From: Bacteroidota bacterium | GTDB lineage: Bacteria > Bacteroidota > Bacteroidia > B-17B0 > B-17BO | Direction of reading: 5' to 3' | Assembly: GCA_947462425.1 (NCBI GenBank) | Contig: CANHPI010000185.1 | Coordinates: 1 to 6,004, forward strand | Length of the DNA: 6,004 bases | Shown here: positions 5,282 through 6,004 of the stretch, piece after piece | Position numbering within the stretch: position 1 is the stretch's first letter | Layout: every line of letters begins with the position of its first letter | Position numbers and translations under genes: made by a program | Notes under the pieces: model-generated | What the model was told of the DNA's origin: nothing | What the model saw: only the letters and a program-made list of their open reading frames with translations | Databases searched by the model: none

Positions 5282-5305
5282 ACTTTGTTATATTTTAATA
5301 TTACA

Positions 5306-5332
5306 AGCCGCTCGTTGAGCGGCTTTTTTTTT
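5306..5332 (+). terminator. Intrinsic terminator, possibly bidirectional
   Basis: AGCCGCTC (5306-5313) pairs perfectly with GAGCGGCT (5317-5324) around a GTT loop, and a run of T follows to 5332. It ends the thioredoxin-like gene 25 bp after its stop codon. On the opposite strand the same hairpin lies just past the crcB stop, followed by the weaker TTGTAATATT, so it may also serve crcB. Confidence 0.93.
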
Positions 5333-5334
5333 AA

Positions 5335-5688
5335 TCACTTAGCAAACATAAAAAATATGCTTGTGCAAAGAATACAACTTACAACAATATTTATTATTGC
5401 CCAAACAGTCATACCCTGTTTAATTAGTTCAAAGGTTTCGTAACTAAAGGTTGAGAATGTGCTCAGCCCGCCGCAAATTCCTATTATAATAAGGTGCTTG
5501 TAGTTATCAGGAATTAAGTTTTTTTCTTGGTAAATATAAATAAGAGTCCCGAAAATAAAACAGCTGATTATATTTGACGATAAGGTGGCAATGGGAAGCG
5601 ATAAAGTTGTTTTACCAAATAATAGAGCAATCATAAAACGTAATACGCTTCCTAATCCTCCGCCTATAAATACTAGTATGTAGTTCAT
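5335..5688 (-). CDS. crcB: CrcB/Fluc fluoride channel
   Basis: This 117-residue protein with four hydrophobic segments exports fluoride as an inner-membrane channel. It is of normal length for the family, whose single-gene members work as dual-topology homodimers. Family marks in order are GGGLGSVLRF at 9-18 (Arg17), a pore Asn39 in helix 2 (TLSSN), and the block GICGGLSTFSTFS at 70-82. That block contains the two Phe-box residues Phe78 and Phe81 and the helix-3 break. Helix 4 has NIVVS (Asn100, Ser104), with Asn where some characterised members have Tyr. The ATG start is preceded by an A-rich stretch. Only 17 bp separate the start codon from the cloverleaf repeat, so a conventional fluoride riboswitch does not fit between them, and I see none of its conserved sequence. 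anmK lies upstream on the same strand, so read-through expression across the repeat is possible. Confidence 0.95.
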   Translation of the reverse strand: MNYILVFIGGGLGSVLRFMIALLFGKTTLSLPIATLSSNIISCFIFGTLIYIYQEKNLIPDNYKHLIIIGICGGLSTFSTFSYETFELIKQGMTVWAIINIVVSCILCTSIFFMFAK

Positions 5689-5705: not shown

Positions 5706-5813
5706 TGTCAGTTCGAGTAGTTCTGCCGCCTTTTTGCAGAACATATCGAGAACTTTTTATGCAACTTCTCGATACACATTTGTAAGAGGCAGACAAATGT
5801 ACTCGAAGTGACA
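5706..5813. repeat. REP/MITE-like palindromic element with four-way-junction (cloverleaf) fold
   Basis: The terminal arms 5706-5718 and 5801-5813 pair at 12 of 13 positions, with one G-G mismatch at 5711/5808. They enclose three hairpins in a row. Hairpin 1 is GTTCTGC/GCAGAAC (5720-5726 with 5736-5742, 9-nt loop). Hairpin 2 is TATCGAGAA/TTCTCGATA (5744-5752 with 5766-5774, 13-nt loop). Hairpin 3 is ACATTTGT/ACAAATGT (5776-5783 with 5793-5800, 9-nt loop). Linkers are zero or one base, so the whole segment forms a closed cloverleaf on either strand. Ends of the form GTCA.TTCGAGTA with a central TCGAGAA hairpin recall dispersed palindromic repeats of Flavobacteriia, which are thought to be moved by REP-associated Y1 transposases. 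No target-site duplication is visible and no second copy lies in this window, so repeat status rests on recalled similarity. Confidence 0.75.
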
Positions 5814-5819
5814 CTTACG

Positions 5820-6004
5820 TTATTTTCTTCCCAAATAAATACAACCCCCGATACTATCTCTGCTTGCTTTTGTTACAGAACTTAATGTGTTGCTAATTTC
5901 ATTTGCTCTTAAATACCCCAAGTATGCAAAAATAATAGCTTCTTTAAATTGAATTACATCATCGGTAGGAATATGAATCCTTCCCTTAAAATGCACTTTT
6001 AATC
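5820..6004 (-). CDS. anmK: Anhydro-N-acetylmuramic acid kinase, C-terminal fragment (runs off the right edge)
   Basis: The reverse strand from 6002 to a TAA at 5822-5820 gives 60 residues with no internal stop. FKEAIIFAYLGYLRANEI followed by SSVTKASRDSIGGCIYLG is the recognisable C-terminal end of AnmK (typically KEA.IFA.L...R followed by TGASRDS.GG). The enzyme phosphorylates and opens 1,6-anhydro-MurNAc from peptidoglycan turnover to MurNAc-6-phosphate in the cytosol, feeding cell-wall recycling. The catalytic and ATP-binding parts lie outside the window. The residue usually Gly in TGAS is Lys here (TKAS), a mild departure. The gene ends 6 bp before the cloverleaf repeat, whose hairpins could protect its mRNA 3' end. 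Confidence 0.85.
   Translation of the reverse strand, partial: LKVHFKGRIHIPTDDVIQFKEAIIFAYLGYLRANEISNTLSSVTKASRDSIGGCIYLGRK

Follow-up and report, generated by a model that had tools for sequence, protein, structure and literature searches.

The Element and Its Neighbouring Genes

The window, that is, the whole stretch of 6,004 nucleotides that was analysed, carries a 108-nt element at positions 5706-5813, located in the intergenic space between two genes on the minus strand. On its downstream side lies crcB (5335..5688; CrcB PF02537, 7.4e-25) and on its upstream side the 3' end of anmK (5820..6004), a PF03702 fragment of 60 aa that scores 20.9 bits, which is under the family cut-off of 24. 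The preliminary description of this DNA, made from the letters alone, had named both neighbours correctly. By gene coordinates, the crcB start codon is 17 nt away from the element, and the anmK stop codon is 6 nt from the element end. The anmK 3' end was matched in eight related loci besides the window, and an Rfam search of the window gave no family at gathering score. At 5305-5332, in the gap that separates a thioredoxin-like gene from the crcB end, a hairpin with a run of T after it (AAGCCGCTC..GAGCGGCTT) resembles a terminator.

Architecture of the Inverted Doublet

Based on the folds and the related copies, the whole element (5706..5813) consists of two extended REP-like half-units arranged as an inverted doublet. 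The G-half (5706..5753, plus strand; TGTCAGTTCGAGTA - hairpin - ATATCGAGAAC) and the C-half (5765..5813, minus strand; TGTCACTTCGAGTA - hairpin - TGTATCGAGAAG in the minus-strand reading) score 58.2 and 71.9 bits, respectively, with R1, a covariance model of the half-unit built from 27 halves, among which are both window halves themselves. A spacer (5755..5763) lies between them; in 38 of 51 doublets, 8-18 nt separate the two model matches. The window copy has a TGTC tag at each outer end, at 5706..5709 on the plus strand for the G-half and at 5810-5813 on the minus strand for the C-half. This tag is conserved in the doublets; its G, T and C are identical between the halves in 50, 49 and 50 of the 51 doublets, and its first base in 35.

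The base stem of the G-half (5710..5754) is formed by GTTC (5711-5714) and GAAC (5750-5753) with a flanking A5710-T5754 pair, and it is followed by tandem G.A mismatches (5715-5716/5748-5749), a closing G-C pair (5717/5747) and an apical hairpin (5720..5742) with the arms GTTCTGC (5720-5726) and GCAGAAC (5736-5742). In the C-half, the base stem (5764..5809) consists of CTTC (5805-5808) and GAAG (5765-5768) with the flanking A-T pair 5809/5764, the tandem G.A mismatches are at 5803-5804/5769-5770 with the closing pair 5802/5771, and the apical hairpin (5776..5800) has the arms ACATTTGT (5793-5800) and ACAAATGT (5776-5783) and the loop CTGCCTCTT. The same layout is common to the copies: two inward-facing halves, each of the form TGTCA[G/C]TTCGAGTA, hairpin, GTATCGAGAA[C/G]. 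A half-unit is approximately 49 nt long and is made up of a TGTC or CGTC tag, a base stem [G/C]TTC/GAA[C/G] with tandem G.A mismatches, and an apical hairpin that varies; the base stem is 4-5 bp long, followed by the tandem G.A and then by 1 bp.

Multiple variations on this layout are found among the copies. A literal CGTC tag is present in copies of genomes G182, G099, G144, G108 and G171, and in several phylum-sample genomes with this tag the apical loop differs. The interval between the base-stem anchors ranges from 14 to 51 nt and is 25-28 nt in 86 of 148 halves. In the window, the tails after the two halves are TTTT and TTGC, and across the family, in a tally restricted to the first base past the half, 33 of 150 halves have C there. 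A nested arrangement of hairpins was seen at L328:1496-1561, where the apical loop of one extended half contains a simple REP-like unit (GTCATATCGAACGGGGTCGAGAT). Halves enlarged by a palindrome insert were seen at L002:16995-17063, L112:1587-1657 and L118:1637-1710; the insert is of the type CCTGCCT..GGCAGGCAGG in the first two, and in L118 it was seen only as added length.

When the window copy is folded as single-stranded DNA, an outer stem (5+7 bp, containing a single G.G mismatch) encloses hairpins of 7, 9 and 8 bp, joined by linkers of 1, 1, 1 and 0 bases. These 36 pairs involve 72 of the 108 bases. The fold has an energy of -27.5 kcal/mol, whereas 200 dinucleotide shuffles average -9.1 (sd 2.4) and none of them is as low; this corresponds to z -7.7. 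The geometry originally described, an imperfect terminal repeat enclosing three hairpins with 72 of 108 bases paired, was thereby reproduced, and the TCGAG and CTCGA motifs were found where they had been placed. The RNA minimum-energy fold differs from this cloverleaf, with -41.4 for the former and -39.4 for the cloverleaf computed as RNA.

Copies in Related Genomes and Turnover at the Junction

All copy counts come from related genomes. With the patatin-like gene of the window as a query, 24 related loci were obtained, the best with 86% identity. Of 21 related genomes, 8 gave BLAST matches to the 108 nt, with 19 matches in G002, and R1 gave matches in 11 of 12 related genomes, with 58 half-units in G002. 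Across the order, R1 matches were found in 46 of 87 genomes; at most 68 candidates were scored per genome, and these order-wide counts are lower bounds. Among 158 genomes sampled from the phylum, G002 included, 18 had R1 matches (37 candidates scored). The earlier suggestion of a dispersed REP/MITE-like repeat is therefore borne out in the relatives, where the element occurs in many places. Head-to-tail arrays of half-units were also observed, with a period of approximately 165 nt in G182 (L334-L337) and of approximately 110 nt in G116 (L333).

A comparison of orthologous anmK-crcB junctions had also been proposed. The adjacency of crcB and anmK is found in eight loci, the window included, and the element is present in two of them (the window and L002) and absent or replaced in six. 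In L015, the closest relative (crcB 97%), the anmK-crcB gap holds, in our reading, another TGTC-tagged inverted doublet (14451-14562), whose arms are ACCCTGAA/TTCAGGGT and ATGCTGAA/TTCAGCAT. An R1 search of the crcB-anmK junction in the other five loci gave no half-unit; L001 has an unrelated 108-nt stretch at this junction and the remaining four have short gaps. The window copy is 90% identical to the L002 junction copy over 95 nt and 88% identical to a copy elsewhere in G002 over 108 nt; the two junction copies may descend from a single old insertion or from two separate ones. A search from one G041 locus gave no precise empty site at the nucleotide level, the longest matches being 65-69% identical in relatives that are too distant.

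Covariation Supports Two Hairpins

R1 matched 170 halves in 83 loci, and the best 150 of these were aligned, with the 20 weakest kept outside the counts. Covariation is seen at the pair 5711-5753, i.e., between position 6 and the last base of the half, which is G-C in 74, C-G in 65 and something else in 11 of the 150 halves. A third version of this flipping pair, T-A, was noticed by eye in the second half of G041 doublets and was left uncounted. Of 102 halves, 96 have T-A and 3 have A-T at the adjacent pair, and the A-T pair that flanks the base stem is less well conserved (67 of 150 halves). The two tandem G.A steps are retained in 97 and 96 of the 102. In a CGAG/CGAG context, tandem G.A pairs of the sheared type are stable.

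The apical arms change together as well. Both anchors were present in 148 of the 150 halves, and 137 had a core of at least 18 nt; an apical helix of at least 5 Watson-Crick bp is formed in 114 of these 137, with 68 distinct arms among the 114. The mean apical helix is 6.6 bp long, compared with 2.8 bp for arms shuffled between halves, for which the maximum over 500 shuffles was 3.45. The compensatory stem change that the preliminary description had proposed to look for is thus strong, both in the flipping pair and in the apical arms. As far as the relatives show, the element is not conserved at a single locus only, and its stems do not vary without compensation.

The same data bear on whether the conserved structure is the cloverleaf or two separate hairpins. 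The flipping pair forms within the halves in 94 of 102 cases, whereas the cloverleaf pair at the same position forms in 4 of 51 doublets for the outer pairing and in 1 of 51 for the inner pairing. Two separate hairpins are supported over the cloverleaf because this informative pair forms inside the halves and rarely across the cloverleaf, and the cloverleaf is consequently not supported as the conserved geometry. It is decidedly improbable that the whole doublet serves as a single cloverleaf or cruciform substrate, even though the cloverleaf is the best DNA fold of the window copy and arm positions 2-4 and 7-13 agree across the halves in 47-51 of the 51 doublets. These near-invariant positions fit both models, and the outer positions 1, 5 and 14 agree in only 35, 39 and 20 of the 51 doublets. 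In the window copy, the calculated energy of the whole-doublet fold (-27.5) is better than that of the drawn two-hairpin fold (-10.4) or of the two best half folds summed (-15.7), and therefore the whole-doublet fold may still form.

Pairing of G-Halves with C-Halves

The 51 inverted doublets have their tags facing outward. When both bases of the flipping pair are considered, 42 doublets are G+C, none is G+G, one is C+C and eight have a changed base; when only position 6 is used, 45 count as mixed and four as C+C. G+G doublets are carried by G108, and the G+C rule is thus not universal. Outside such doublets are 48 of the 150 half-units, some because their weak partner is among the 20 excluded matches. 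A G+C doublet is also formed by the simple TTCGAG-type units that occur alongside the extended ones in these genomes (e.g., L006:2102-2174). For CGTC-tagged REPs, a preference for heterodimers was reported without an obvious explanation in the part of the source compared here, together with the suggestion of protection from SbcCD-type clearance (PMC3733652). A single flipped pair would give such protection while leaving each hairpin whole.

Position Relative to Genes and Traces of Insertion

Relative to mechanically called frames of at least 80 aa, 27 of the 51 doublets lie between same-strand neighbours, 16 between convergent and 2 between divergent ones, 4 are inside a frame and 2 are undetermined. 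An adjacent stop codon is present for 47 doublets; the raw median distance to it is 14 nt, and 33 of the 47 are within 25 nt. The half nearest the stop codon is the C-half in 23 cases, the G-half in 22 and a half with changed bases in 2, and the doublets have no orientation bias.

The position close to stop codons, the rarity of divergent neighbours and the strong RNA fold would suit a selected RNA element in 3' UTRs, such as a terminator or an mRNA-stabilising hairpin, that was spread by duplication. This explanation is improbable, as the elements have no orientation preference relative to the gene, match no Rfam family and are absent or replaced at six of the eight orthologous junctions, and as the tandem arrays and a recent burst in G041 suit a mobile repeat.

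Exact abutting target duplications of at least 4 nt were found in 0 of 48 doublets, with at most 0.55 expected; these 48 remain of the 51 after two duplicates and one copy with a short flank were dropped. Abutting duplications of 2 and 3 nt occur 7 and 3 times, compared with 5.7 and 1.6 expected, and 5-mers common to both ends within 10 nt occur 8 times, compared with 4.7 expected, a slight excess that leaves room for a faint duplication signal. The doublet flanks are AT-rich. They are also more complementary to each other than re-paired flanks (p 0.036), which is driven by approximately six cases with a terminator-like hairpin round the element and is only suggestive of insertion into such hairpins.

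A Recent Burst in One Genome

In G041, at least 41 matches to one 64-nt G-half query were found, with 89-100% identity (40 of 62 candidates scored). Many of the doublets in this genome (L183-L202, L229-L258) were observed inside a compound structure, mostly of 150-230 nt, with one to several C-type units. Its outer arms of 17 nt, GAAGTTGTCTAAAGTCC/GGACTTTAGACAACTTC, gave 47 pattern matches, compared with 3 for the control. A nucleotide search found no close relative of G041. For one pair of neighbouring G041 copies (L238), the frames between and beside them resemble, in our reading, an amidohydrolase and an outer-membrane protein, with no transposase-like frame, and this neighbourhood was set aside as a source of the enzyme.

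Inverted ends, together with the outer arms of the G041 compounds, are what would be expected of a MITE of a DDE-type transposon that is recognised via its terminal inverted repeats. Such an origin is very improbable: the abutting duplication of at least 4 nt is missing in all 48 doublets and no target duplications were evident by eye round the G041 compounds, the window copy has no outer arms, and single halves occur too.

The Y1/RAYT Transposase Question

The preliminary description had likened the element to repeats mobilised by Y1 (RAYT) transposases. Y1 (PF01797) matches are present in 57 of the 87 genomes of the order, among them four in the burst genome G041. The association between the presence of the element and of Y1 over the 87 genomes is not significant, with Fisher p values of 0.50, 0.23 and 0.12 at thresholds of at least 1, 5 and 10 halves; at the last of these, Y1 is found in 17 of 21 genomes compared with 40 of the remaining 66, which is the expected direction. 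The Spearman correlation (rho 0.18, p 0.09) likewise gives a weak positive trend, calculated over genomes many of which are fragmented, and a weak link between Y1 and the element is compatible with these data. In the phylum sample, 13 of the 16 element-bearing genomes searched have Y1; this search excluded G093, which has one match, and G002. Conversely, G116, with a contig of 2.59 Mb in a genome of 2.6 Mb, carries at least 30 half-units and G171 carries 18, and neither of the two has a Y1 hit. The copies of G171 are dispersed and not near-identical (11 stretches viewed); G060, also without Y1, has arrays.

R1 was run on 60 Y1 loci, which are a subset of all Y1 matches. At 44 of these loci, nothing better than E 0.36 and 0.91 was obtained. 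The 16 further loci gave one match, a lone half in L315 (E 1.4e-6), which by eye lies in a palindromic insert, itself within a repeat that flanks the Y1 gene on both sides. In this locus (L315:1187-1400 and 1862-2190), the Y1 gene, with the motif YIRNQEDHH, was observed between two direct copies of the palindromic repeat; by eye, one copy carries the palindromic insert, with the ends TTACTCCGGTGG, and the other copy represents the empty site. Scanning the first 18 of the Y1 loci for the pattern of the element ends, with up to two substitutions allowed, had given hits at L063, L068, L071 and L072, and these were rejected since R1 disagrees (L068, 13.1 bits, E 0.36). When the 60 loci were scanned for tagged hairpins in general, three were positive, L071, L072 and L325. 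At L325 (G175), two identical canonical CGTC REPs, at 934 and 2364, flank a Y1 gene and lie inside copies of a larger intergenic repeat. This Y1 gene was rejected as a driver, as it looks, in our reading, like an IS200-type gene between copies of the larger repeat.

No mobilising gene was found at the Y1 loci or in the frames by the L238 copies, and a Y1/RAYT driver is not supported for the element; that part of the preliminary description did not hold, with a match at 1 of 60 Y1 loci. The repeat could nevertheless be a REPIN that was moved in trans by a Y1/HUH transposase (RAYT), since lost in some genomes. Its architecture, extragenic site and lack of a clear duplication fit REPINs as described in the part of PMC3116915 compared, and Y1 is present in many genomes of the order, with a trend in the expected direction, and in most of the element-bearing genomes of the phylum sample. 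Given the lack of a significant association over the 87 genomes, the Y1 loci, the two genomes rich in half-units without a Y1 hit and the published statement, in the part of the source compared, that CGTC repeats are not associated with transposase genes (PMC3733652), this explanation is possible but doubtful. By title, no later paper naming a dedicated transposase for CGTC-type REPs was found in the literature.

Relation to Known Repeats

The element shares multiple features with the CGTC-tagged REPs in the compared part of their description (PMC3733652): a TGTC or CGTC tag at one end (classical REPs have GTAG), a hairpin, a mostly inverted doublet arrangement with common heterodimers, a location between unidirectional or convergent genes, occurrence in Bacteroidetes and the absence of an associated transposase. 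In the same part of that description, these REPs are 20-40 nt long with a loop of 4-5 nt, to which exceptions are published, whereas the half-unit here is approximately 49 nt long and has a base stem broken by tandem G.A and a long variable apical hairpin. Their stem is 8-9 bp long and starts from complementary A/T; here, the first pair is A-T in 67 of 150 halves and the stem is 4-5 bp, G.A and 1 bp. They also have a short tail, mostly CCA, which the window copy does not have. The description as compared does not mention the G/C flip by which the two halves are told apart. Because loop size and tail, both published class features, differ here, the element is not assigned to CGTC-1 to CGTC-4; it is a new structural variant related to the CGTC-tagged REP doublets.

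The simple TTCGAG-type units (L006:2102-2174) share the tag, the base stem and the G+C doublet with the extended half-unit, and a short loop replaces the apical hairpin. Such a simple unit is likely the parent form of the extended one. REPINs and BIMEs, in the compared part of PMC3116915, are alike in being inverted REP doublets that are extragenic, fold into hairpins and are dispersed, the multiple copies here being found in relatives. REPINs are linked to a RAYT, whereas none was found for the element at the Y1 loci examined; it is REPIN-like in behaviour and does not belong to the REPINs on this point. DDE-transposon MITEs have inverted ends in common with it and differ in the abutting duplication of at least 4 nt. 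A literature search with exact element strings listed no paper whose title concerned bacterial repeats.

Proposed Mechanism and Significance

Taken together, the element is probably a non-autonomous, dispersed inverted doublet related to the CGTC REPs, which is spread as DNA by an enzyme acting in trans. In this mechanism, the enzyme would recognise the tag and hairpin in single-stranded form, distinguish the G-half from the C-half as ends that are not equivalent, and insert the copy just past stop codons, leaving the target unduplicated. The flipped pair would keep the hairpin of each end while avoiding one long perfect palindrome. In each unit, the apical hairpin takes the position of the usual small loop; its stem drifts with compensation, and the CGAG/CGAG step is conserved.

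CGTC-type REPs were described in 2013 as being without a dedicated transposase, according to the part of the source compared (Di Nocera et al., PMC3733652). A broader reading, and an unlikely one, is that extended CGTC-type REP doublets are a Bacteroidota-wide class of mobile DNA that does not use Y1/RAYT. An unrecognised single-strand enzyme would then read the tag and the CGAG/CGAG G.A step, take the one flipped pair as a mark of left and right and target sites just past stop codons.

The family provides a handle on the missing transposase of the CGTC-type REPs through its phylum-wide profile, the burst genome G041, where a search for the mobilising enzyme is promising, and G116, nearly a single contig, with many copies and no Y1 hit. 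The fold backed by covariation indicates which oligonucleotides to test, and the one flipped base pair gives a simple, testable form to the unexplained heterodimer preference of REPs.
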